From a virus, in IMG/VR virus record IMGVR_UViG_3300049728_000107, positions 1-25,127 of that record: a DNA stretch of 25,127 bases; one strand, 5' to 3'. Below, one piece after another: positions 6,099 to 23,380 of this stretch (within the stretch, counting starts at the first letter, position 1; the number at the start of each line of letters is the position of its first letter). Below the pieces are notes generated by a model. That model ran no database searches. It had not been told where the DNA came from and saw only the letters and a list, made by a program, of their open reading frames with translations. The translations under genes were made by a program, and so were the position numbers.

Positions 6099-7867
6099 CA
6101 GACCATCCCTCCGTCAGCGTGATCGACCAAGCTGCGCGATCTGACCGCGCCGCCGATGTCCTTCGCGATGCCTTGGGCGTCCGTGGCCTGGGTCTGCACG
6201 TTGATCTGTCCGATGTGAGTCTCGCGGTTGGACTGGTTCGTGGTGTTGCGACTGATCGCGGCCTGTTGGGCCTGCCCCTGCTGCGCCAGCACAGTATGAA
6301 TGGAGGGCGTGGAGGCCGACGCAGGTGCCCCGGCGCCACCCGATACCGCCACAGCTGCGGTCACGATGGCCTTCCCGAACATGCTCGCGACCTTGGTGAC
6401 CATGCCGACGATCTTCGAGATCTTTTCCTCGATCCAGCGAAGTGGCTCCGTCGCCGCTTCCTTGAGCCCAGCCCACATTGCCTTGCCGGCTGTCAGCAGC
6501 TTACCAAAGAGCCCGATGATGAGCGTGACCTGGGAAAGAATGATGAACAGTATGATCATCCATGCCATGTGCAGCGCCGCCTTGCAGTGCTCCCACAGCG
6601 AGTGCCAGGACTCCTTGATCTTGTCGCCGTTCCACGTGAAGATCCCCACGAAAACATTGACCGCATCAGTAGCTGCGGAAAAGACATCCTTGATCACGTC
6701 CCAGATGGCCAGGAAGACCGTCAGCACGTAGTTCCTGATCCACCCGAAGACGCTACCAACGACATTCCGGAAACCTTCGAAATGATTGTAGAGCTTGACG
6801 ATTCCGCCGATGAGCAGCGCGATGAGTGGGATGAGAAGGATGAGTCCGCCCGTGGCAGCCACCCAGGCCAGCGCGGCGGAGGCACCCATGATGAGAAACT
6901 GCGCACCCGCCAGCAGCGAGGCCACGCCAGAGGCGACCCAGCCCGCCACGGTCAATTCCGCAGCCACCGCAGCATGCACGCCGATGGGGATAAACGCGAG
7001 GGCGATAGCGCTGAGAATCCCAAGGATAAGCGGCTTGTGGGCATTCATCGTCATGGCCAATGACGTCATCTTGTCGGCGGCCCAGCCCATGACCGGAATC
7101 AGCATGTTGGCGAACGCCTCGAAGAGCTTCGAGACCGCGATCTTCATGGTGTTCATGGACTCTTCGACCTTCTCAGCGGCAGCCGCGTCCTCTTCGCGGA
7201 CGACGCCGAGCGCCTTGGACTTGGCCATCAGCTCCTCGTACTCCGCGCCCTGCTTATGCAAGATGCGGATCATGGCCTCGCCCTGTAGCCCCATCTTTCT
7301 GCCCAGCGTCATAGCCTCCTGGAGGGAGAGCTTGCCACTGGAGAACTTTTCGTGTATCTGATCCAGGACGTCGGTGGTCTCGACATGCATCCCCTTACCG
7401 AGGCCCTGGATGCCAGCAGCCTGGAATGCTACCAGTGCGCGCCTGGCACGCGGCAGTCCCTTCCCGATGTCGACCAGGTTTCCGCCCAGTCCCTTGAGGC
7501 TGGCGTTGAACTCCTCGGCCGAGCCACCCGCTATCTTAACAGCGCTCTGCCACTTGCTGATCTCTTCCGTGGCCATCCCCGTCTGTTCTTTCAGATGGAA
7601 CATCTCGGTTCGAGACTTGATGGTGGACTCGGTGAAGGCGACGAGCGCCCCCACTGAGGCCATGATTCCGAAAAACTCAATCGCATGCTCTTTGAGCTTG
7701 TCAAAGAATTCTGCGCCGCGCTCGCCCTGCTTCTTGAGCTCCTCGGCTGTCTCCTTTGCCTTCTCTTTGGTCTCCTCCAGATCGTGCTTCGTCTGTTCGG
7801 CCCCGGCCTTGAACTCGCGAGAGTCAAGACCAAGCGTTACCAGAAGAGCATCAACAATTGTCGGCAT
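6098..7867 (-). CDS. Tail tape-measure protein
   Basis: This 589-residue protein follows the tail chaperone pair, as tape-measure genes usually do. It has an N-terminal charged coiled-coil (about residues 20-65), a helical body with LKEQTGMATEEISKWQSAV, a strongly hydrophobic block (about 278-358) with several membrane-like segments and another at about 434-455, and an Ala/Gly/Pro linker before a conserved end INVQTQATDAQGIAKDIGGA...DGGMV. Tape measures set tail length and carry membrane-active segments that help DNA cross the inner membrane. At the usual 0.15 nm per residue, 589 residues would give a tail of roughly 90 nm; this is an estimate from the family rule. Start ATG is 7 bases after the chaperone stop. 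Confidence 0.9.
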   Translation of the reverse strand: MPTIVDALLVTLGLDSREFKAGAEQTKHDLEETKEKAKETAEELKKQGERGAEFFDKLKEHAIEFFGIMASVGALVAFTESTIKSRTEMFHLKEQTGMATEEISKWQSAVKIAGGSAEEFNASLKGLGGNLVDIGKGLPRARRALVAFQAAGIQGLGKGMHVETTDVLDQIHEKFSSGKLSLQEAMTLGRKMGLQGEAMIRILHKQGAEYEELMAKSKALGVVREEDAAAAEKVEESMNTMKIAVSKLFEAFANMLIPVMGWAADKMTSLAMTMNAHKPLILGILSAIALAFIPIGVHAAVAAELTVAGWVASGVASLLAGAQFLIMGASAALAWVAATGGLILLIPLIALLIGGIVKLYNHFEGFRNVVGSVFGWIRNYVLTVFLAIWDVIKDVFSAATDAVNVFVGIFTWNGDKIKESWHSLWEHCKAALHMAWMIILFIILSQVTLIIGLFGKLLTAGKAMWAGLKEAATEPLRWIEEKISKIVGMVTKVASMFGKAIVTAAVAVSGGAGAPASASTPSIHTVLAQQGQAQQAAISRNTTNQSNRETHIGQINVQTQATDAQGIAKDIGGAVRSRSLVDHADGGMV

Positions 7868-13232: not shown

Positions 13233-14303
13233 TTAGGCTCCGAGAAGACTGCTGATGGCAGCGGCGATCTTGATGATGGTGCCCCAGGTTCCGCCGGACT
13301 TCTTCTGGTGGGTGCTGGAGGTCTTGCGGACGATGGCGTGCGCGCGCAGCTTCTCGGTGAAGGCGCAGAAGCCGGTCTTCTGGCCCTGGACCTTGGGAGC
13401 GATGAGCTGCACGAGGTTGCCCGACGCGGTGACGTACTGCTGCGCGGTCTTGAACTCCATCTTGGGGAAGGCCTCCTTGAGGTAAGCCTTGACGGACGGG
13501 GTGCCGTAGACGTTCTGCATCGGGGTCAGCAGGTAGGGCTGCAGGGTGGAGGGCAGGGCCAGGATCAGCTCATCCTCCATTTCCAGGTTGCCGTTCAGCT
13601 GAGTCTGCAGGGTGACAAACAGGTTCTGGATGTCGGCCACGATCTGGACGCCGGTCGCGGACTTCCACACACCGTTGAGCGGGGTGAGGGAGGGCAGCAG
13701 CGCGGGGTCGTTCAGCAGACCGTAGTTGGAGATGCCGGCGACACCGAAGAAGTACGTCCGGTTCTGGAAGGTGTTCATGATCAGCGCGGAGGAGACGTTC
13801 TGCTCGGCGGCCCAGTCGATCTTCGCGAGACCGGCCTTGGCCAGTTCCTTGTCGCCCCAGCGGGTGAAGGTCTGGTAGGCGTACGACTGGCGAGGAACCC
13901 AGTTGGCGTTGGCGCCGACCAGCCCGTTGTCGTTGTCGTCACCGTAGGACGACACTTCGCCGGTGGACTCGATGATGGGGAACTGCGCGGAATCCATCAG
14001 CCAGTCGCCCTTCTTGACTTCGCCGAAGATGTCCACGGCCTTCATCGGGGTGGTGAGCACCCGCACGATCTCCGGGTCCAGGTAGTTGCTCAGGTAATTC
14101 GGGATGCCGGCATTGCTGGCGGTCACGAGCCCGGACTGGAGCAGGTTGGTGGGAGCGTCCATGGCCATCTGAATGGCCTGGTCGAAGCTCATCCCGATGG
14201 GGGAGTGGGTGTCGACGCAGGGGATGATGGCGTGGTCGCCGCTGTCCATGCCGATGCCGTAGCGCTCGGCGAGGAGTTGGGTCTTGTCAGTGAACTTCTT
14301 CAT
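13233..14303 (-). CDS. Major capsid protein, DUF2184 family
   Basis: The 356-residue protein matches the DUF2184 capsid family across its length: GIPNYLSNYLDPEIVRVLTTP (in part, about residues 66-86), IFGEVKKGDWLMDSAQFPIIESTGEVSSYGD (in pieces, about 92-122), QSYAYQTFTRWGDKELAKAGLAKIDWA, YFFGVAGISNYGLLNDP, and near the end GQKTGFCAFTEKLRAHAIVR. It should form the HK97-fold icosahedral shell. There is no separate delta-domain by length, in line with the separate scaffold-like gene upstream. The start follows AAGGAG at an 8-base distance, a strong site fitting high expression. The gene stops with TAA. Confidence 0.93.
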   Translation of the reverse strand: MKKFTDKTQLLAERYGIGMDSGDHAIIPCVDTHSPIGMSFDQAIQMAMDAPTNLLQSGLVTASNAGIPNYLSNYLDPEIVRVLTTPMKAVDIFGEVKKGDWLMDSAQFPIIESTGEVSSYGDDNDNGLVGANANWVPRQSYAYQTFTRWGDKELAKAGLAKIDWAAEQNVSSALIMNTFQNRTYFFGVAGISNYGLLNDPALLPSLTPLNGVWKSATGVQIVADIQNLFVTLQTQLNGNLEMEDELILALPSTLQPYLLTPMQNVYGTPSVKAYLKEAFPKMEFKTAQQYVTASGNLVQLIAPKVQGQKTGFCAFTEKLRAHAIVRKTSSTHQKKSGGTWGTIIKIAAAISSLLGA

Positions 14304-15317: not shown

Positions 15318-16295
15318 TTAAGCCAGGCCGGGGAGCTTGGGGAACTCCTCGAGCAGGGACTTGGTGACGGCCGCATCCTGCGCGAACTTGGCCTTGGGGG
15401 TGGTCTTCTCGCTCTTGAGAAGGGTCTGGAGGACCGCCTTGTAGGCGACCTTGGGCACGCCAGCGAGGTCCGCGCCCTTGGCGTCGAGGGCCATCTTGTA
15501 GATGGAGGCGGCGGAGTCGGCGGCGAAGACGTTGACCTTACCGACGATGGGCTTCACGATCTCGGCCGCTTCATAGCGGGCGGCGAGGCGACGCACGGCC
15601 AGGTCCGCACCCTCGGTGCGGGCGGAGTCCATGGCGGAGTCGAGCGCACGCTTGGCCTTCTTGTCCTTGGCTTCGTTGCGCTCGCCCTCTTCGTCATCCT
15701 CATCGAAGTCGCCTTCGCGACCTTCGAGGTCTTCTTCGTTGCCGGGGACCTTCTTGTCCTTCGCCTTCTTGTCCCTCGCCTTCTTGTCCCTCGCCTTCTT
15801 GGCGTCAGCGGCCTTCTTGTCCTTGGCCTTCTTGTCCTCGTCCTCGTCCTCGTCCTCGTCGTCCTCGTCGTCCTCGTCGTCCTCGTCCTCGTCCTCGTCT
15901 TCCGCCTCGTCTTCGGCGGCCTTCTTCTTCATCTTCTTGGCATTCTTCTTGAACGCCTCGGGGAGCGCGTCCTCGTTCTCTCCGTCCTCGTCCTCGGCCT
16001 CCTCTTCCTTCTTCTTGTCCATGGCGAGGGTGGATGGCATCAGGGCATTGAGCACCTTGCGGAGGTCCGCGAAGGACTCGTCCTGGGCGATGCGGGAACC
16101 GAAGCGCTCCTTGACGGTGCCGACGATACCGTCTATCTGGCGGTCGTAGCGGCCAGGGGAGATGGACTTGCACAGCGCCTCGAGCTCGACGCTCTGGAGG
16201 GACTGGTCAGCGGCCAGTTTCGGCACGATGTAGGTGGCGAGGGCACCCATGACGCGGTGCCCCTGGGGGGTGAGGGTGATCATTTTCTTGCCCAT
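15318..16295 (-). CDS. Scaffold-like protein with extreme acidic tract
   Basis: About 325 residues from ATG 16295, chosen because AAGGAG lies 5 bases upstream; a longer start at 16334 would overlap the protease gene and lacks a site. Residues 1-90 form a folded-looking domain (TPQGHRVMGALATYIVPKLAAD, FADLRKVLNALMP). Residues about 128-154 are almost pure Asp/Glu, 155-182 alternate Lys/Ala/Asp (KKARDKK repeats), and 187-205 are acidic again. Residues about 215-325 form a helical C-terminus (AVRRLAARYEAAEIVKPIVGKV, FPKLPGLA). Similar N- and C-terminal parts occur, as I recall, fused behind DUF2213 proteases in other phages. Between protease and capsid genes, an internal scaffold is the natural reading, not proven by sequence. 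Confidence 0.72.
   Translation of the reverse strand: MGKKMITLTPQGHRVMGALATYIVPKLAADQSLQSVELEALCKSISPGRYDRQIDGIVGTVKERFGSRIAQDESFADLRKVLNALMPSTLAMDKKKEEEAEDEDGENEDALPEAFKKNAKKMKKKAAEDEAEDEDEDEDDEDDEDDEDEDEDEDKKAKDKKAADAKKARDKKARDKKAKDKKVPGNEEDLEGREGDFDEDDEEGERNEAKDKKAKRALDSAMDSARTEGADLAVRRLAARYEAAEIVKPIVGKVNVFAADSAASIYKMALDAKGADLAGVPKVAYKAVLQTLLKSEKTTPKAKFAQDAAVTKSLLEEFPKLPGLA
15835..15900 (-). repeat. Low-complexity tract encoding Asp/Glu run
   Basis: The plus strand shows repeated GTCCTC units with interspersed GTC, which on the coding strand read GAG-GAC mixtures and give about 22 consecutive acidic residues. Such simple repeats can change length by slippage, so the tract may vary between related phages. 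Confidence 0.9.
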
Positions 16296-16317
16296 TTGGG
16301 CTCCTTGTTGAAAGGGA

Positions 16318-18402
16318 TTACTTACCCTCGGCAAACTTGCCGAGCTTGAACTTCCGCTCTGCGGCGCTGATGCGCTTGTCGATCTTCGTCTGGTCCTCCT
16401 TCCCGTACTGACTTCTGTTCTTGGTCATCCCGAAGTAGGAGGCTGCAGCTCTCACGTGCTCGGGCGTGTCCAGAGGATATTTGTTGTTCTTGGGGTCGGC
16501 GAACTGCACATCGCCGTACTCGCGCTCACCGGACTTGGCGCTGACGTCGTCGCGTTTGGTGATCGAATCCTGACAAGAAAGGTCTTTTGGCATTGAATCG
16601 TGCCATGGCGCAATTTGACCCAGCGACGTGTGCACAGGCTTCCCGAACTTGATATAGCCAGAATTATGCTCACTTGCCTTGGCTGTGTGCACAGCTTTCT
16701 TTTCTTCGGTTGGCGCGACCTTGGCGGCACGTGTGTGTTCTGTCCACGCTTTTAGATGCGCATTTTGAATATCCTTCCGTGGCGCGTTTGCTTTCTCCAG
16801 CTTTGCCGCGTTCTTTGTAGCTTCACGTGCTTTCCCCGCAGCACTAGAATACTGGTTGATCCCCTCCGGGTTGCTGTCCTTCGCTCCGCCCGACCGCCGA
16901 GTCTCAAGCTCAGCGGCTTTCTCGTGGTAGGCTGCCTTTTCCTCATGGCCCCGCACTGGAAAATTGTTCCCCGTTGCTTTGGCTTTTTCTGCGGCGTTGC
17001 GATGTGCTTCTGCGGCCTTTGTGTGTGCCGCTGCCGCTTTGGCGTGCTCGCTCGTCGTGGACGAAAGTTTGGCGGCCTTGTTGGACGCGCTCTTAGCTGC
17101 TGCGGCCGCGCTGTTGTACTGGTTGATCCCCTCCGGGTTGCTGTCTTTCGCGCCACCGGCAGGCTTCTCGAACTCAGCGGCGACCTCGTCCCAGTACTTC
17201 GCCTGCTTGGCGAACCCGGCGCTGCGGTGGAGGCGCGCGGCCTCGCGGGAGAGCCTCGCCGCCTGCTTGCGGTTCTCGGGCGTGGGCTGCATCCCGGCGA
17301 GCGTGCCGGCGGACTTGGCCGCTGCTTCTGCGGTCTCGTAGTCCGAGCCGTGCACTTCCTTCGTGATGCTGCCGTCCATAGCCGCGTCTTTTCCTTTGGC
17401 GATCTCGGCTGAGGCCAGGCGATGCTCCTTGGCTGCTGCCAAGTGGTGTGCGGCCGCTTCCCTATTGCCAAGTGACTCATGTTCCTTTGCTGCTCTCGTG
17501 TGAACCCTCGCCGCCAGATCATGCTTGGCAGTAGTGCCCTCTTTCATGGCCCTCTTCGAGGTGACGCTGCCACTGACTGAGGTGTTGTAACCCTCGTCGC
17601 TCTGGGCGTTGACAGACCCACGATAGTTGGCCCCAGCTTCGCGACGGTTATTCACAGTAGGCGCTGCAGCTTCCTTGGCCTTTACCGCATGCTCGGCAGC
17701 CTTCTCAGCATGGCCACCGCCCGAGTACTGGCTGATACCCTCTGGGTTGCTGTCAATTCCGAACAGCACGGCGCGGACCTTTTCGGTCGCGCCCAAACCC
17801 AGCGCGGTGCTGACCTTCCGGTAGTCGACCACATTTGCACATCCATTCTTGGAATCCATGACCTTAACGTCGTGCCCTGCCCGCCCTTCCGTGACCAGCG
17901 CCACGTGGTTGCCCTGAATGTCACGCATGATGCCGTCGTAATGCTGCCCCTCGAAGGTGCCGGGCGTCATGTCGGGCTGGTAGCGATATGCGCAGGACAG
18001 CTCGTGCTTCTTCCTGGCCTGGATGTCGTCGATGGCGGACTTGGCATGCAGGACCAGTGTGTTGTTGAGGTAGGTGCCGTCGAACTCCGCGTCCGTCCCG
18101 GTCGAGCCGACGTAGAGCGCCTTGACTTCCGGCTTGTCCATGTCGAAACTGCTGACCGGGATGTGCTTGCTCAGGATGGGGAGGTTGTTGAATGTCGGGG
18201 CGGCCTTCTCCAGTTCCTTCGGATCGCGCAGCAGGTAGTAGACCTTGTTGGGGTCAAGACCCAGCTGCTCGCAGCCCGGGATCTCCGAACCCTTGTACGG
18301 ATTGACCGTGGCCTTGCTGATCGGGTTGGGCTCGACGTGCAGGTAGCCATTGGCGTCGATCCGGCGGGCGGACTGCTTGTCGAGTGCCAGGGTGATGCTC
18401 AT
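16318..18402 (-). CDS. DUF2213 prohead protease with long repeat-bearing C-terminal extension
   Basis: Of 694 residues, only about 1-183 make up the protease: DANGYLHVEPNPISKATVNPYKGSEI, LPILSKHIPVS (His80 a likely catalytic residue), HELSCAYRY (Ser136 the likely nucleophile) and GIMRDIQGNHVALVTEGRAG (in part). These are DUF2213 hallmarks; such proteases trim scaffold and capsid proteins during head maturation. Residues about 217-580 contain three DSNPEG-I-[SN]-QY motifs (217-226, 420-429, 509-518), each leading into Ala/His/Lys-rich helices. Residues about 600-694 (ADPKNNKYPLDTPEHVRAAASYFG) look like the DUF6582-type helical domain found on some phage proteases. The start has only a modest AAAGGG site. 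The extension is twice the enzyme's size and is the oddest region of the window. Confidence 0.88.
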   Translation of the reverse strand: MSITLALDKQSARRIDANGYLHVEPNPISKATVNPYKGSEIPGCEQLGLDPNKVYYLLRDPKELEKAAPTFNNLPILSKHIPVSSFDMDKPEVKALYVGSTGTDAEFDGTYLNNTLVLHAKSAIDDIQARKKHELSCAYRYQPDMTPGTFEGQHYDGIMRDIQGNHVALVTEGRAGHDVKVMDSKNGCANVVDYRKVSTALGLGATEKVRAVLFGIDSNPEGISQYSGGGHAEKAAEHAVKAKEAAAPTVNNRREAGANYRGSVNAQSDEGYNTSVSGSVTSKRAMKEGTTAKHDLAARVHTRAAKEHESLGNREAAAHHLAAAKEHRLASAEIAKGKDAAMDGSITKEVHGSDYETAEAAAKSAGTLAGMQPTPENRKQAARLSREAARLHRSAGFAKQAKYWDEVAAEFEKPAGGAKDSNPEGINQYNSAAAAAKSASNKAAKLSSTTSEHAKAAAAHTKAAEAHRNAAEKAKATGNNFPVRGHEEKAAYHEKAAELETRRSGGAKDSNPEGINQYSSAAGKAREATKNAAKLEKANAPRKDIQNAHLKAWTEHTRAAKVAPTEEKKAVHTAKASEHNSGYIKFGKPVHTSLGQIAPWHDSMPKDLSCQDSITKRDDVSAKSGEREYGDVQFADPKNNKYPLDTPEHVRAAASYFGMTKNRSQYGKEDQTKIDKRISAAERKFKLGKFAEGK
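16663..16878 (-). repeat. NPEGINQY/Ala-His repeat unit 3 (protease residues about 509-580)
   Basis: Again preceded by GGAK: DSNPEGINQYSSAAGKAREA, then NAHLKAWTEHTRAAKVAPTEEKK and AVHTAKASEHN. The turn APTEEKKAVH parallels APTKEDAKVH in the small protein at 20540-20860. Confidence 0.85.
16906..17145 (-). repeat. NPEGINQY/Ala-His repeat unit 2 (protease residues about 420-499)
   Basis: Preceded by GGAK, starts DSNPEGINQYNSAAAAAKSA and continues AHTKAAEAHRNAAEKAKATG, then HEEKAAYHEKAAELETR. The motif DNA at 17116-17145 is nearly identical to that at 16849-16878. Confidence 0.85.
17413..17754 (-). repeat. NPEGINQY/Ala-His repeat unit 1 (protease residues about 217-330)
   Basis: Begins with DSNPEGISQYSGGG, then HAEKAAEHAVKAKEAAA, a less regular insert, and a helical pair HTRAAKEHESLGNREAAAHH / LAAAKEHRLASAE. 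It is the most diverged and longest unit. The motif DNA (17725-17754) resembles the other copies. Confidence 0.75.
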
Positions 18403-18444
18403 CGTTCTGCCCTTTCGGTGACGTGATGGCCGGGTCTGTACACG

Positions 18445-18762
18445 CTACTGTGCCGGCGCGTCGGTGGGGACGTCGGACGCCGCGATCTCCAGCGGTGCCA
18501 CGTTCTCAGCGACGGTGGTGGCGTCAGCAGGCAGCGGCTGCACGGTGCGGAAGCGCGGCGCTCCGGTCGTGGCGTCGAACTCGATCACCGTGGCGGTCCC
18601 GTCCTCGTTGACGCCGAAGTAGGCCACGCTGCGGTCCAGGGCCGCGATCGCCGGCAGCTCTGCCTCGTACTCGGCGTGGAGCTTGCCGACCGTGTTCTGC
18701 ATGATGTCGGTGGCCTTCTCGACGTTGGCCTTCATCTTGTTGACGCTGTCCAGAAGGGACAT
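18445..18762 (-). CDS. Small protein of unknown function before the protease
   Basis: About 105 residues from ATG 18762, which follows AAGGAG by 6 bases; the longer open frame upstream is Ser/Pro/Arg rich and lies over the next gene, so I discard it. The N-terminus is a helix (SLLDSVNKMKANVEKATDIMQNTVGKL), then AALDRSVAYFGVNEDGTATVIEFDATTGAPRFRTVQ looks like a small beta domain, and the Ala/Pro/Asp-rich tail is probably disordered. I do not recognise a family. Being within the head operon with a good binding site, it is likely a head accessory or assembly factor. Confidence 0.7.
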   Translation of the reverse strand: MSLLDSVNKMKANVEKATDIMQNTVGKLHAEYEAELPAIAALDRSVAYFGVNEDGTATVIEFDATTGAPRFRTVQPLPADATTVAENVAPLEIAASDVPTDAPAQ

Positions 18763-18775
18763 AATTCTCTCCTTG

Positions 18776-19009
18776 TTATTTGCCCGCTGCCTTGAGCGAG
18801 TTGGCGGTTGTGAGGTGGTTGGTGGCAGTCGTCTGTGCGATGGCGGCCTTGGCGGTGGAGGTTCCGGCGACATTCCACGCGGCGCTCGCAGCCTGGTGCG
18901 CCTGGTACGCGGCGAAGTGCAGCTGTGAAGTGTTGAGGGTGTTGGCCTTCGCGGTGATGGAGTCGGCGTCTGCCGAGGCTTTGACTGCTGCGTCCTGGGC
19001 GATGGACAT
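18776..19009 (-). CDS. Small Ala-rich helical protein, function unknown
   Basis: About 77 residues from ATG 19009, which has AGGAG 5 bases upstream. The sequence is almost entirely Ala, Ser, Thr, Asn and Lys helices: KASADADSITAKANTLNTSQLHFAAYQAHQAASAAW, then TSTAKAAIAQTTATNHLTTANSLKAAGK. HFAAYQAHQAA resembles the Ala/His helices of the repeat family in the protease and in the protein at 20540-20860, but no NPEGINQY motif is present. It is the first gene after the AT-rich gap, so it may begin a separately transcribed unit. No function can be assigned. Confidence 0.65.
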   Translation of the reverse strand: MSIAQDAAVKASADADSITAKANTLNTSQLHFAAYQAHQAASAAWNVAGTSTAKAAIAQTTATNHLTTANSLKAAGK

Positions 19010-19272
19010 GTGAACTCCTGTGTGAATACGTAAGACGAGGTTCGACGAGCTTCTGCTTGCTGCATGGTGGGAAACATTTACGGTGGTCAACCGGACTCGG
19101 TAAAGTTGCACTAACAAGACAGGTCGCGACTTTGAGGTTCCTTTATTTACTCCATTACTTAATTACCAATATTTCAAAAGTAGTACAGTAGAAATAGACA
19201 GATATAAAAGGGAGAGGGCGAGAGTATATAGAGTTTGGGACCTCGGTAACGCGGCAGTCAGTAATAATCCGA
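19010..19272. other. Largest non-coding gap in the window, with AT-rich core
   Basis: No gene with a credible start is found in these 263 bases. By hand count, 19141-19200 has only 15 G or C in 60 bases, unlike the GC-rich coding around it; 19201-19260 has 30. On the minus strand a TATACT (19223-19228) could be a -10 element but its -35 partner is poor. GTCGCGAC is an 8-base palindrome near 19123. No hairpin followed by a T-run is seen. A promoter for the downstream head genes is the simplest guess. Confidence 0.6.
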
Positions 19273-19611
19273 CTACTGCGGTGCAGACCGCGCAGCCCTT
19301 TCATGCATCTGCGATTCGTTGGTGAAGATGGCGGCCTCATCCATCATTCCAGCGTTCAGAAGTGCATAGGCTGCAGCGATGCAGGACTGTGCAGCCGAGT
19401 TCAGGTTCATAAAGGTCGGCTGCGCAGCGGCTTTTGCAGACGCATTGTGCGCGCTGGAGATGATGTCCAGGAGCTCGAGGGACCCGAGCGGCCCGGTTAC
19501 GTCGGCCGGGGCCTCACCCGACACCTGGACCGACTCCATGGACTCCAGTTCAGCCTGATCGGCTGCGAGCTGCACCTCGTCTGCTTTGATCTTGTCTTGA
19601 AGGTCGCTCAT
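19273..19611 (-). CDS. Small Ala-rich protein of unknown function
   Basis: About 112 residues from ATG 19611, which has AGGAG 7 bases upstream and overlaps the stop of the head morphogenesis gene as ATGA. The first 30 residues are a charged coiled-coil-like helix (DLQDKIKADEVQLAADQAELE); after a Pro/Gly break come ISSAHNASAKAAAQ and SAAQSCIAAAYALLNAGMMDEAAIF, ending ESQMHERAARSAPQ. The second half recalls the Ala/His helical units elsewhere in this operon and has the look of a helical-hairpin (TPR-like) segment. I know no family. It is the last gene before the AT-rich gap. Confidence 0.7.
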   Translation of the reverse strand: MSDLQDKIKADEVQLAADQAELESMESVQVSGEAPADVTGPLGSLELLDIISSAHNASAKAAAQPTFMNLNSAAQSCIAAAYALLNAGMMDEAAIFTNESQMHERAARSAPQ

Positions 19612-20543
19612 TTGACACTCCTGTAACCTGGGATGATGGACGATGAAAGACAACCGCAGTTGATGGCCTCACCTGGCAGCACCAGTCCAAAGCCGTCGTC
19701 AAAGTCATGACCCTCATCAACCGGGTAGCTTTGACCGTCAAAATCCTCGTGCTCCTCGCGCGGGTGGAGGGACGCGCCCGTATGCTGCCACTCCGCCTCG
19801 GTGATGCCGCAGTCCAGCTGGCGGGTGCGATGGAAGAGCGCCGTCATCTTGTTGTTCTGGTCCCGGGCGATGAGCGCGGCGCGGCGGCGCGTGACGCCGA
19901 ACCGGTCCTCTAGGTTCTTGGTGAATCCGACGACGTCCCGGCCCTTCTCGATGCTCTCCTTCGCCATCTTGCGGATCTCGCCGAACGCCTTCTTGGGGAT
20001 GCTCGGTCCGTCCTTGATGCGCCGGTTGCTGATGAGGTCGACGTTGTCCTTGAGCTGGTTCTTGATCGTCTGCTTGAGGCGGTCGGTCATATCGAACTTG
20101 ACGGCGAACTTGCGCCAGATGTGCTCGGTGTCCGCGATGGAGTCCATCGTCACTGCGGTGCGGTCGCCCAGGACCGTCGGTGGGGGAACCTGGATGCCGA
20201 CCTTCTTGAGCGCGTCGGCGAAGGCCAGGTCGTGGTGGCGGAGTGCCATGTAGACGGCCTCGAAGGCGATGCTCAGCGCGCGCTCGTTGCAGATCTCGAC
20301 CCACTTCTCTTCCAGGTTGCTGAGCTTGTGGTTCATCTCGCCGTGGGGGAAGGTCGCCCAGGTGATCGGGCCTTCGCGGTCGGCGCGGGAGTAGAGAGGG
20401 ACCAGTTCACTGGCGACGTCCCGGAACATTTCGCCCACGAGCTTCGTCAGCTGCTTTTCGTACCACGCACGCACGCCCGCGCTGGGGCGAACCGGCGCGA
20501 GCTTGACGGGATCAGGTCCCGGTGCGTGGAGTTGGATGGTCAC
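19608..20543 (-). CDS. Head morphogenesis protein (Mu F / SPP1 gp7 family)
   Basis: The 311-residue protein has the family's C-terminal domain (about 205-305): RRAALIARDQNNKM (220-233), EWQHTG (251-256), PREEHEDFDG (261-270) and PGEAINCGC (290-298), where the R-x-x-H and C-x-C pairs are the conserved features of PF04233. The N-terminal 200 residues are helical and charged. Members bind the portal and are packed in small numbers in the head. GTG 20543 is the start, overlapping the previous stop as GTGA. Its place two genes behind the portal matches the usual order. I see no nuclease or ADP-ribosyltransferase motif fused to it. Confidence 0.85.
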   Translation of the reverse strand: MTIQLHAPGPDPVKLAPVRPSAGVRAWYEKQLTKLVGEMFRDVASELVPLYSRADREGPITWATFPHGEMNHKLSNLEEKWVEICNERALSIAFEAVYMALRHHDLAFADALKKVGIQVPPPTVLGDRTAVTMDSIADTEHIWRKFAVKFDMTDRLKQTIKNQLKDNVDLISNRRIKDGPSIPKKAFGEIRKMAKESIEKGRDVVGFTKNLEDRFGVTRRRAALIARDQNNKMTALFHRTRQLDCGITEAEWQHTGASLHPREEHEDFDGQSYPVDEGHDFDDGFGLVLPGEAINCGCLSSSIIPGYRSVK

Positions 20544-20860
20544 AGATTACTCGTGTATACACGGTTGTGCTGGTCAGCAAACTTTTCGTGGCGCTCCGCC
20601 GCCTTTTCGTGAACTTTTGCGTCTTCTTTGGTGGGCGCGTGCTCTGCTGCTTTCAAGTGTGCTGACGCAGCTTGGTGGTGAAGATCTTCAGCCTTCATGT
20701 GCGCTGACGAATTGCGCCCACGCGCCTCTGCCTCGTGGGTGGCCTTCTGTGCCACCTTGGTCTTCTCTGAAGCTTTCGCTTTCAGCCCACTAGCACCCGT
20801 GTACTGGTTGATCCCCTCAGGATTGGAGTCCTGCGTGATGCTGCCTCGAATGTCTTTCAT
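20540..20860 (-). CDS. Stand-alone NPEGINQY/Ala-His helical repeat protein
   Basis: The 106-residue protein is one repeat unit: a start MKDIRGSITQ, the motif DSNPEGINQYTGAS (residues 11-24), a Lys/Ala helix (KAKASEKTKVAQKATHEAEA), then AHMKAEDLHHQAASAHLKAAEHAPTKED and AKVHEKAAERHEKFADQHN. The same architecture occurs three times in the prohead protease tail and, without a clean motif, at the portal C-terminus. GSITQ at 6-10 parallels GSITK (344-348) and DSITK (612-616) in the protease. The GGAGG site 8 bases before ATG 20860 supports expression. No function is known to me. Head-internal location is suggested by its neighbours: the portal region upstream and the morphogenesis protein overlapping downstream. 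Confidence 0.8.
   Translation of the reverse strand: MKDIRGSITQDSNPEGINQYTGASGLKAKASEKTKVAQKATHEAEARGRNSSAHMKAEDLHHQAASAHLKAAEHAPTKEDAKVHEKAAERHEKFADQHNRVYTSNL
20561..20830 (-). repeat. NPEGINQY/Ala-His repeat unit 4 (in the 106-residue protein)
   Basis: DSNPEGINQYTGA followed by Ala/His paired helices with an APTKEDAK turn. The motif DNA at 20801-20830 matches those inside the protease gene closely but not fully, pointing to an older duplication than that between units 2 and 3. Confidence 0.85.
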
Positions 20861-21198: not shown

Positions 21199-21410
21199 CA
21201 GAGCTTCTCCTTGGGGAGATTGGTTTTGAGGGACTTGAACTGGGTCGCGAAGCCCTGCTCCCGGAGCGCGGCGACCAAGCGCGGTCCTTCGATCTTGTGG
21301 TCAAACTCAATGGGCACTTCGAGCTTTGCTTCAAGGTAGATGTGCACGAGCATTGGGTGCAGGTGGAAGCGGAAGAAGCGGAGAACTTCCTTGTCGCTGA
21401 CGGCGTTCAC
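21198..21410 (-). CDS. Small protein of unknown function following the portal
   Basis: The 70-residue product starts at GTG 21410, with GGAGG 7 bases upstream and a GTGA overlap with the portal stop. The sequence NAVSDKEVLRFFRFHLHPMLVHIYLEAKLEVPIEFDHKIEGPRLVAALREQG has a mixed alpha/beta look, with a basic, Leu/Lys-rich end (FKSLKTNLPKEKL). I do not recognise it. Coupled translation with the portal suggests a packaging or head role, for instance a portal-binding accessory; no motif shows this. Confidence 0.68.
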   Translation of the reverse strand: MNAVSDKEVLRFFRFHLHPMLVHIYLEAKLEVPIEFDHKIEGPRLVAALREQGFATQFKSLKTNLPKEKL

Positions 21411-23380
21411 AGTTCCACCTCCTCGGGCAACGGGGACGATTCCATCTTGTGGTGCGCGATCGCGGCCTCGTGAGCGTCGATGTAGTTCTCGTGCACGACC
21501 TTGTTCTCACGGTTGGCTGGAGCCAGAGCAGCTTTGTGCGCATCAAGCGCGCGGCTGTGTGCATTGGCAGCCCGCTCGTGTGCCGCTCTGGTTCCAGTTT
21601 TGTGGGCCACGTTGGTGGCCTTCTGCGCAACCGCGCTTGCCTTCATCGCCGAGACTGAAGGATCTTCGTCGTCACCGCCGATCTTGCCGGTGTGCTGATT
21701 TCCTGCCCACAGCCCTGCGTCCATGGCCACGCGCTGGGCGTCCTCCAGCATCATGTCAGACGCAATGCGCAACATATCGGGCATTGCGTCGTTGCTGTTC
21801 TGCGCAGCGGTGAAGTCCGCGTCGGGATTTCCGCCAGCCTTGCCGCCCTTCTTCGTCCCACCGGGCTGCGGCGCGACCAACTTGCCCTCAGGCTTGTCGA
21901 CGTCGAGGTTGTCGAAGCCGCTGTCGGGATCTGCCGCCACCTTGGCACGCACCTCTTCGGGCGTCACGACCCCGGCCGTAATCAGCGCGACGTCGCGGTC
22001 GCCGTCCGACTTCCGCATCAGGGCCTTCTCCTTCTCCGTCTCGCTTACCAGCGTGACGAAGTCGAAGGTGATGTCGTCGTAGATCTCGCCGAAGAGGTCG
22101 AGCATGACGATCTTCGTCAGTGCCTCCAACGGGCGGCGGAAGTCCGACTCCTGCTTGGTGTTGACATGGTTGTTGTAGATGGTGATGTCGGTCTCCGCCG
22201 TCGCGGTGAGTCCGACCGGCGACAGACCGAAGAGGATGGTGAGCGGAGTCTTCGCGACCGAAGCCATGTGCTCCTGCGCCTGCGCCTGCAGCTTGTCCAG
22301 CCCGGCGAGCGAGGTGGACTCCTTGCTCATCTCCTCCGTGGCCTTGTCGCACATGAAGACGCCCTGGTTGTTCTGCATCGCTGTGTAGAACTTCATGCGC
22401 CGCAGGAAGCCCTCGTAGTTCTGCCCCTGCAGGATGCCCGTCATGTCGGTCTTGAAGACCGTGGTGGAGAAGTTCTTGAGCAGGCGACCCACGGAGTCCC
22501 GAGTCTGCAGCCAGTAGTCCACATACGGCTGGGCCAGCTGGGAGAGCGAGATACCCGAGAAGTTGTAGACGGGCTTCAGCAGGTCGGGCAGGGGATGGGG
22601 GATGAACGTCAGCAGCCGGGAGGTGTGCACCTTCTTGGAGTAGACCCACCACGTGCTCGGCTCATAGTAGTCCTGCGCGAGCGGGTCGTCGGCGTTGTAG
22701 TCACCAGGGTAGGTGGCGATCGGCTCGATGCCTTTGAGCCGCTTCAGACTGCCCTTCTTGATCTTCTCTTTCTGGATGAGTAGGGGCGTGCCCAGCTCTT
22801 CGTCGTCGTCCTCGAAGTCCATGAAGATCTGGGAGCGGCCCATTGAGCGCCCGGTCCGGGCCGCCCAGTTGAACCACTCCTTCACGTGCAGCTGGCTGAA
22901 TCGCAGATTGATCTTCTTGATGATATCGTCGCGGCCCTCTCCGGACTCCGAGCGGAACTCGATCCACTTGCGGGTCATCTCGTCGGCGGTCTTCTCATAG
23001 AGGTCACGATACTCCGTTATCTGCGTCAGCTCGGTGAGGTAGGGAAAGCCCGGGAACCCACCATACGACATGAGCCCGTTGCGACCGTGCCCTGCGAGCA
23101 GAGGGCCAACCGCTGCGTCCATAGCCAGCACGTGCTCATCGGGGCAGACCAGGTTCTTGATGGGAGGAACGTAGGGCGTCAGCGCGAACTTCGGGCGGGG
23201 AAGCTCAAGACGACCCTCACCGGAAGTCAGCGCGAAGGACATGGCCTCGTCGCTGATGGTGAACATCTGCCGCTTGTATTCCTTGTGCGCAATGGCGACG
23301 TTCTCGCCCTGCGCCTTGCGGCGACGAGCGAGCTCACGGTTGTTGCGCCAGTCGCGGATGGGGTGGAAGGAGATCGTCAC
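21407..23380 (-). CDS. Portal protein, DUF1073 family, with Ala/His-rich C-terminal tail
   Basis: The 657-residue protein carries the DUF1073 portal core at about residues 80-480: FPGFPYLTELTQITEYRDLYEKTADEMTRKWIEF (in pieces, 109-142), AARTGRSMGRSQIFMDFED (about 173-191), and TPLTILFGLSPVGLTATAETDITIYNNHV (in pieces, 378-406), all characteristic. The portal is the dodecameric ring through which DNA enters. Residues about 480-555 are a flexible linker. Residues 560-566 (GNQHTGK) look like a worn NPEGINQYTG motif, and 575-645 are Ala/His-rich helices (AHERAANAHSRALDAHKAALA) like those in the protease extension. GTG 23380 overlaps the terminase stop as GTGA. The core call is firm; the tail's role is unknown. 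Confidence 0.9.
   Translation of the reverse strand: MTISFHPIRDWRNNRELARRRKAQGENVAIAHKEYKRQMFTISDEAMSFALTSGEGRLELPRPKFALTPYVPPIKNLVCPDEHVLAMDAAVGPLLAGHGRNGLMSYGGFPGFPYLTELTQITEYRDLYEKTADEMTRKWIEFRSESGEGRDDIIKKINLRFSQLHVKEWFNWAARTGRSMGRSQIFMDFEDDDEELGTPLLIQKEKIKKGSLKRLKGIEPIATYPGDYNADDPLAQDYYEPSTWWVYSKKVHTSRLLTFIPHPLPDLLKPVYNFSGISLSQLAQPYVDYWLQTRDSVGRLLKNFSTTVFKTDMTGILQGQNYEGFLRRMKFYTAMQNNQGVFMCDKATEEMSKESTSLAGLDKLQAQAQEHMASVAKTPLTILFGLSPVGLTATAETDITIYNNHVNTKQESDFRRPLEALTKIVMLDLFGEIYDDITFDFVTLVSETEKEKALMRKSDGDRDVALITAGVVTPEEVRAKVAADPDSGFDNLDVDKPEGKLVAPQPGGTKKGGKAGGNPDADFTAAQNSNDAMPDMLRIASDMMLEDAQRVAMDAGLWAGNQHTGKIGGDDEDPSVSAMKASAVAQKATNVAHKTGTRAAHERAANAHSRALDAHKAALAPANRENKVVHENYIDAHEAAIAHHKMESSPLPEEVEL
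21446..21703 (-). repeat. Degenerate NPEGINQY/Ala-His unit at the portal C-terminus (residues about 560-645)
   Basis: GNQHTGK takes the place of the motif; MKASAVAQKATNVAHKTG and RAAHERAANAHSRALDAHKA correspond to the helix pair, and NRENKVVHENYIDAHEAAIAHHK to the second helix after the turn. The match is by pattern, so it is weaker than units 2-4. Confidence 0.6.

Follow-up and report, generated by a model that had tools for sequence, protein, structure and literature searches.

We analysed a 25,127-base virus record, IMGVR_UViG_3300049728_000107 (the window; L-numbers denote related or motif-bearing loci), whose head proteins carry repeated units composed of a short NPEGINQY or GNQHT motif and a helical bundle. 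We propose, with moderate confidence, that these units are detachable cargo modules of the phage head, which would be released by the DUF2213 prohead protease, kept in the head and probably ejected. Units would enter the prohead either fused to resident proteins (the protease and the portal; MuF in relatives) or as small proteins that bring a short leader of their own. A likely site of the form hydrophobic-[A/G/T]-x-D↓[S/A/G] ahead of each unit (the arrow marks the predicted cut) would allow the protease to cut the units loose inside the prohead. The freed piece, a flexible NPEGINQY or GNQHT tail followed by a mostly basic three-helix bundle, would then stay with the DNA and pass into the next host; for the NQ[Y/H/W] motif we favour recognition by a head component. 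The head genes of the window, identified with Pfam and PHROG, encode a terminase, portal (Phage_portal_3), MuF protein, DUF2213 protease, scaffold-like protein and capsid protein, and tail genes were assigned by eye from position and sequence.

Units on the head proteins of the window

A preliminary description of this DNA had reported four copies of DSNPEGI[NS]QY, at protease residues 217, 420 and 509 and at residue 11 of a small protein, together with SIT motifs (protease residues 345-348 and 613-616, small protein residues 7-10). All of these are present, and the suspected recent duplication of units 2 and 3 fits their 93% identity over 41 nucleotides of motif DNA; identity to unit 3 is 68% for unit 1 and 76% for unit 4. 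A fifth unit, at the C-terminus of the portal, had been overlooked.

We built a hidden Markov model (HMM) from 11 seed units (units 2, 3 and 4, the portal unit and seven from relatives) and searched 4,861 six-frame open reading frames (ORFs) of at least 50 amino acids from the window and loci L005-L044. Unit 5 (portal residues 555-657; positions 21410-21718, on the minus strand like all window features given below) follows the predicted site VAMD554↓A and contains, over residues 554-646, VAMDAGLWAGNQHTGKIGG, with the GNQHTG motif, and an Ala/His three-helix bundle (domain E 1.6e-17, a seed). Unit 4 (20564-20830; E 1.2e-27, a seed) is the stand-alone protein, in which the leader MKDIRGSITQ precedes DSNPEGINQY and the bundle. 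The same motif and bundle make up unit 2 (protease residues 420-508; 16879-17145; E 2.4e-20, a seed) and unit 3 (residues 509-601; 16600-16878; E 5.7e-20, a seed). The claim that helices of this kind follow every motif holds for units 2, 3 and 4 but not fully for unit 1 (residues 217-342; 17377-17754), where DSNPEGISQY stands before a degenerate, interrupted bundle (motif half E 3.4e-6, bundle half E 0.53). Between units 1 and 2 lies a helical segment without the NPEG motif (residues 343-419; 17146-17376), which starts at AAMD343↓GSITK and recurs in L012 (E 4e-41) and L014 (E 8e-11). Besides units 2, 3 and 4 the HMM matched many relatives among the ORFs, and the same 4,861 ORFs, block-shuffled, gave no match at domain E < 1. 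Across an aligned set of 25 units, Gln in the motif and Ala in helix 2 are invariant, and further columns of Asn, Ala and His are nearly so. The units are Ala-rich, with a median isoelectric point of 9.2 (range 6.3-11.1), and being mostly basic would suit contact with DNA.

The expected Ala/His helical pair is indeed helical, with three helices in place of two. In the AlphaFold model of the small protein (predicted template modelling score 0.74), 20 low-confidence residues containing the motif are followed by helices at residues 24-46, 51-73 and 78-103, and the mean predicted local distance difference test score (pLDDT) is 95-98 in each ten-residue block between 31 and 100. Thus a unit alone is confidently predicted to form a stable helical fold, an MIT-like three-helix bundle and not the hairpin foreseen. 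The MIT domain is likewise a three-helix bundle, and the Vps4 MIT domain 9bl8 aligned in VIA with Z 11.1 and a root-mean-square deviation of 1.9 over 79 residues; identity in the MIT matches listed is 6-16%, and the unit profile matched the NRBF2 MIT domain weakly (E 0.16). MIT domains rank high in VIA among other helical bundles, and a Foldseek search of the bundle against BFVD and PDB gave no match at E <= 0.001. Since helical bundles reach such Z values without kinship, we take the resemblance as a likeness only.

Spread of the units and the sister motif GHEFHGNQY

The unit family is larger than first noted. In the viral contig collection, 39 stretches contain exact NPEGINQY, and the carriers of units include MuF and small proteins besides proteases and portals; one contig, listed twice (L011, L037), has unit proteins identical to those of the window, and a search for relatives with the small protein of the window returned one locus with an identical protein. 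Searching 15 loci with a portal sequence pattern gave 9 portal ORFs, 7 of them distinct, a tally of loci that show a portal by this pattern. The bundle is present, together with an NQ[H/F] motif, in all 7, in the window portal and in the L014 portal (found through its unit). Among 50,697 phage records, tblastn found no match to the small protein at E <= 1 and none to a GHEF peptide or a unit-like query at E <= 10, which is weak evidence of absence because short, low-complexity queries lose sensitivity. In the open PMC literature we found no mention of HEFHGNQ, HEFRGNQ, NPEGINQ or GHEFHG, nor of GNQYT together with phage.

A sister motif extends the family further. HEF-x-GNQY has at least 120 matches in viral contigs, and 125 non-redundant copies were read, nearly all of them GHEF[H/R]GNQY. 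The looser pattern H-x-F-x-G-N-Q matched 129 times in 14 records picked because they bear copies (2 to 21 each), and its reverse was absent from all 14. Both kinds of motif occur together in L005 and L028. When 290 segments following either motif were searched with a bundle HMM, whose training alignment included some of them, 35 matched at E <= 1e-3, a number that rose to 41 with one iteration, and shuffled versions of the 290 gave none at that threshold before or after iteration. The matches include many GHEF segments, such as those of L085, L159, L140 and L102. The L102 phage differs from the window in its capsid family (Phage_capsid_4) and in its protease family; its protease contains four GHEF copies, three of them followed by a bundle at E <= 1e-3 and one at 0.007, and its MuF protein and an ADP-ribosyltransferase (ART)-like protein, recognised by eye and without a database match, contain one copy each.

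What stands behind the tag can also be of another kind. Pfam was applied to 122 of the 290 segments, hand-picked so that many bundle segments were omitted, and at least 77 had no match at E <= 0.001. The remainder included pentapeptide repeats (6), ART-PolyVal (3), ADP-ribosyltransferase exoenzyme (3), topoisomerase IB N-terminal (3), GNAT (3) and topoisomerase I core (2) domains, with single matches to HipA-like kinase, PI3/4-kinase, RelA/SpoT, DRAT, DUF3990, MuF, DUF2213 and others. Several of these domain types are discussed, in the passages cited, for injected polyvalent proteins and MuF toxins (PMC5512222, PMC5576092). Recurring leaders, such as MSGFT-x-NELLYPLTKGD in L154 and others, often stand at the start of small GHEF proteins, ahead of the motif. 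In a list of 126 first motifs of both kinds lying at most 75 residues from a start chosen by a simple rule, leaders are shared within GHEF loci such as L154, L170 and L116; the window has a single NPEG small protein. In the GHEF group, for which an Asp site lacks support, the tag seems to be a signal for targeting or docking. Among the tagged genes of L070, positions 6691-7146 encode a protein that reads as Dps-like.

In bacterial and archaeal genome contigs the frequency of HEF-x-GNQY is near chance, with 39 matching stretches and about 30 expected for equal base frequencies in 257 billion bases. L176 has a phage-like context, L188 and L191 show the form GHEFYGNQYTSGN, and the remainder look like chance matches. 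L188 and L191 are Bacteroidota genome contigs in which GHEFYGNQYTSGN sits in Asn/His/Ser-rich ORFs.

A DNA-level recombination signal was considered and rejected, since the motif codons mostly vary within loci: GNQ is written in 5 codon versions in 5 copies (L170) and 4 in 4 (L139), though in only 2 in 6 (L102). The codon variation also bears on whether the units are merely low-complexity Ala/Lys/His helices with a glycine-rich linker, spread by duplication and lacking a specific function. The Ala-rich sequences and the seemingly recent duplication of units 2 and 3 would fit such an origin, yet we consider it very improbable, as the peptide stays while its codons mostly vary, the 25 units keep their invariant and near-invariant columns, and decoys of equal local composition gave no HMM match, either in the ORF set or among the 290 segments at E <= 1e-3.

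Candidate prohead protease sites

In the head-cargo proposal, cleavage ahead of the units would set them free in DUF2213 phages. Cleavage had been mentioned earlier as something that might perhaps happen later; it can now be tied to a specific candidate Asp site, at which the cut itself is predicted. We derived a site matrix from 39 head-protein sites of four relatives with unit-free proteases; they have the form hydrophobic-[A/G]-x-D and were chosen with the pattern [LIVMFY][AG]xD. Of the 374 Asp residues in the window, capsid Asp49 and Asp20 rank first and second and portal Asp554, at the start of unit 5, fourth, with portal Asp88 completing the top four. The other boundaries follow at ranks 17 (MuF Asp134), 19 (protease Asp343), 20 (small-protein Asp11), 23 (protease Asp509), 24 (Asp420, which ties with Asp509 in matrix score) and 29 (Asp217). 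For 33 motif sites from 12 sources, with one Asp per site taken by a fixed rule, the median percentile was 0.934 (0.946 if the better of two Asp is taken). Of these sites, 20 reached the top 10% and 15 the top 5%, and comparison with 2,174 other Asp gave a Mann-Whitney p of 8e-13. Two further motif matches lack an Asp within range; one of these, in a tail protein, is a chance match. Site-pattern matches are also numerous in the proteases of 4_D05 (5), Amjad_SA (4), phiAC-1 (6), Highwayman (3) and PA-1 (6), where shuffles lead one to expect 0.5-0.8.

The capsid proteins point to the same site. In the window and five relatives the N-terminal region carries AMD[A/D] directly before the conserved fold, and the same place is occupied by LMD in L013, AQD in L014, AFD in L017 and AYD in L050. 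The window capsid matches the solved capsids 8frs (E 1e-16) and 9b40 (Pa193 gp26, E 5e-16). E217, Pa193 and PB1 are Pbunaviruses. According to the structural reports, in the parts cited, the capsid protein is visible from residue 66 in E217 (PMC10329688) and Pa193 (PMC11042391), and the first 93 residues of the Pa193 portal are absent from the map and were undetected by liquid chromatography-mass spectrometry (PMC11042391). In PB1 the homologous capsid protein, of 382 residues, contains SAMD64↓S65 and the portal contains VAMD76↓S77, and the PB1 protease is a distant homologue of the window protease (28% over 167 columns, E 7e-15). From the site ranks and the capsid evidence of these three phages we conclude that the units are probably bounded by prohead protease sites. 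The PB1 portal (L222:1112-3421) has 769 residues, and the cited part of the Pa193 report describes a portal built for residues 94-528 only; portal C-terminal passengers may therefore occur in cultured phages as well.

Several observations weigh against this interpretation. Asp612, before the DUF6582 domain of the protease, ranks a poor 69 of 374, and 13 of the 33 motif sites lie under the 90th percentile. The matrix builds in the [LIVMFY][AG]xD form because the training sites were picked with it, and it is unspecific, tail proteins holding 6 of the top 20 window sites, so that single sites are no proof. For the missing capsid N-terminus of E217, its authors consider cleavage or disorder in the passage cited (PMC10329688). 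In the GHEF group the preceding Asp stands at the bottom of the scale (median 0.0, 229 sites), 34 further sites have no Asp in range, and KGD is not enriched elsewhere in GHEF ORFs (8 found and 11.0 expected; 9 found and 8.75 expected). The idea that the GD before GHEF is the same protease site was rejected on these bottom scores and the lack of KGD enrichment. The Asp site would therefore be confined to DUF2213 phages, the NQ motif being more general. Finally, our confidence in the cargo proposal is no more than moderate because we infer cleavage, retention and ejection alike.

MuF cassettes and the protease-scaffold split

MuF is a further carrier. In the window, the MuF linker (residues 123-141; 20121-20177) contains the site VTMD134↓S and is the long low-confidence stretch of the model (pLDDT < 50); the alignment places the inserted cassettes of L014 and L028 here. 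Of 14 aligned MuF proteins, 9 show an A-x-D site within their N-terminal part, and those without it (window, L012, L005, L014, L028) have the VTMD linker or an inserted cassette instead. The L014 cassette comprises about 160 residues with IVLDDNPEGINQY; that of L028, about 500 residues with a DUF7178 match, begins after ALAMD and ends at VTMDA. The L028 cassette (L028:8784-11312) opens with EFEEDLHPRDDHGRFAG after ALAMD. As RDDxGRF in L028 stands about where L014 has NPEGINQY, both motifs may be interchangeable.

Cultured relatives encode protease and scaffold in one gene, whereas positions 15318-18402 of the window hold two genes with units at the split; judged from this layout, the units take the scaffold's place in the window protease. 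Scaffold-like sequence lies apart from the protease ORF in the window, L012, L013 (and the near-identical L023 and L040), L014, L017 and L031. It runs within the protease ORF in L018, and weak matches point to the same arrangement for L045, L048 and L049.

This split bears on a function close to the one first suggested for the units, in which tag and bundle tether the protease, the portal and their partners to the scaffold or capsid lining during assembly and act before any cleavage. A protease separated from its scaffold may need a new tether, the GNQ core kept in the 34 GHEF-group sites without Asp in range fits a binding peptide, and leaders common to small proteins fit targeting. L018, however, has a unit protein although its protease ORF continues into a scaffold-like stretch (E 8e-7; the ORF is incomplete). 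The motif also precedes enzyme-like domains without an assembly role, in 2 to 21 copies in the 14 chosen records. The preliminary description was right that the units are modular, duplicated and mainly on head proteins, but the wider motif family also marks non-assembly proteins, and for part of that family the bundle does too. Docking of assembly partners as the purpose of the tag is thus weakened by its presence on ADP-ribosyltransferases, topoisomerase IB, kinase-like proteins, acetyltransferases and pentapeptide repeats. For the wider family assembly-factor docking is doubtful, and docking of cargo to the prohead through the tag could still apply. Overall we hold the docking or scaffold function to be unlikely; cargo fits better, because tags precede non-assembly domains and unit-free relatives fuse protease and scaffold.

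The fused genes raise another alternative, namely that the units are propeptides which fill or shape the core, are cut out and then leave the head like other scaffold pieces. The protease gene of relatives holds, in the same part, a scaffold with repeated A-x-D↓S sites, and the general expectation for propeptides is that they leave the head, as stated in the cited part of the SPN3US study (PMC10052503). Stand-alone unit proteins and tagged enzyme domains, however, make little sense as waste, and the bundle is retained in all related portals identified, so that we regard disposal as improbable and retention of the units as cargo as the better account.

Comparison with known systems

Phage T4 provides a close parallel for loading. 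Its diverse injected proteins share a conserved capsid targeting sequence, IPI is proteolysed to give its mature form (PMC3012670), and Alt is a head-packaged, injected ADP-ribosyltransferase (PMC5512222), as the cited passages report. The small GHEF proteins resemble these T4 proteins in having common leaders and variable cargo, some of it ADP-ribosyltransferase. Here, in contrast, the tag is also found inside proteases, portals and MuF proteins, and it would remain on the cargo, unlike the T4 targeting sequence, because it lies after the candidate cut.

For cleavage, the cited part of the SPN3US study describes an A-X-E prohead protease site with Ala at P3, an acidic P1, a preference at P4 and Ser at P1', and cuts in the portal and ejection proteins (PMC10052503). 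The hydrophobic-A-x-D↓S form seen here shares these features; the acidic residue is Glu there and Asp here, and that part of the study describes no unit or NQ motif.

Effector domains such as ART and RelA/SpoT occur fused to MuF or portal in MuF polymorphic toxins and polyvalent proteins, and are thought to be injected (PMC5576092, PMC5512222); the passages cited describe no common tag or head-protease sites for them. In the phages studied here, cassettes sit inside MuF (L014, L028), not at its C-terminus, and modules occur in the protease and portal genes. Polymorphic MuF toxins are defined by a C-terminal toxin domain, and the window MuF matched only PF04233 in Pfam and head families in PHROGs; polyvalent proteins have several unlike catalytic domains, and the window protease matched only DUF2213 and DUF6582 in Pfam.

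Other features of the window

The DUF2213 domain of the protease (residues 13-184; 17851-18366; PF09979, E 1.3e-47) scores 162.3 bits, above the gathering cut-off of 22, and the whole protein matches PHROG 2229, head maturation protease (E 5.7e-90). The C-terminal DUF6582 domain (residues 612-685; 16348-16569; PF20223, E 4.4e-25) scores 88.3 bits, above the cut-off of 27.3; DUF6582-like sequence was also seen in ORFs of the GHEF-motif loci L140:4369-6972, L149:2696-4741 and L158:2160-3893. The separate scaffold-like gene (15318-16334) matches positions 203-422 of PHROG 2229 (E 1.6e-22) and, weakly, the fused protease genes of L045, L048 and L049 (E 0.003-0.006). The major capsid protein (13233-14303; PHROG 264, E 2.6e-64) has its predicted propeptide end at AMD49↓A. 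A small protein with an Ala-rich region (18776-19009) begins MSIAQD↓AAVK, its Asp6 ranking 5 of 374 by the site matrix. Homologues occur in L005, L012, L014 and L028, that of L012 matching the unit HMM (E 3.7e-4), and the protein is a possible further cargo. NCBIfam returned nothing above a curated cut-off for 8 proteins, two weaker matches being portal and MuF domains.

Significance

More tentatively than for the units of the window, and at somewhat less than even confidence, we suggest that G-x(0,1)-N-Q-[Y/W/H] (as in NPEGINQY, GHEFHGNQY and GNQHTGG) is a head-cargo address used by several tailed-phage lineages with different capsids and proteases. Tagged items, a dozen or more in some phages, would be loaded into the head, and in some lineages the protease would free the passenger. 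The Asp-site interpretation also predicts maturation cuts in E217, PB1 and other well-studied DUF2213 phages. The proteins carried in phage heads and injected are mostly unknown outside a few models. If the suggestion is true, the tag would be a phage counterpart of the signal peptide, and the injected proteome could be read from sequence. Such a readable tag would draw attention to many enzyme-like cargo proteins of uncultured phages that are so far uncharacterised, and it could serve to load chosen proteins into heads.

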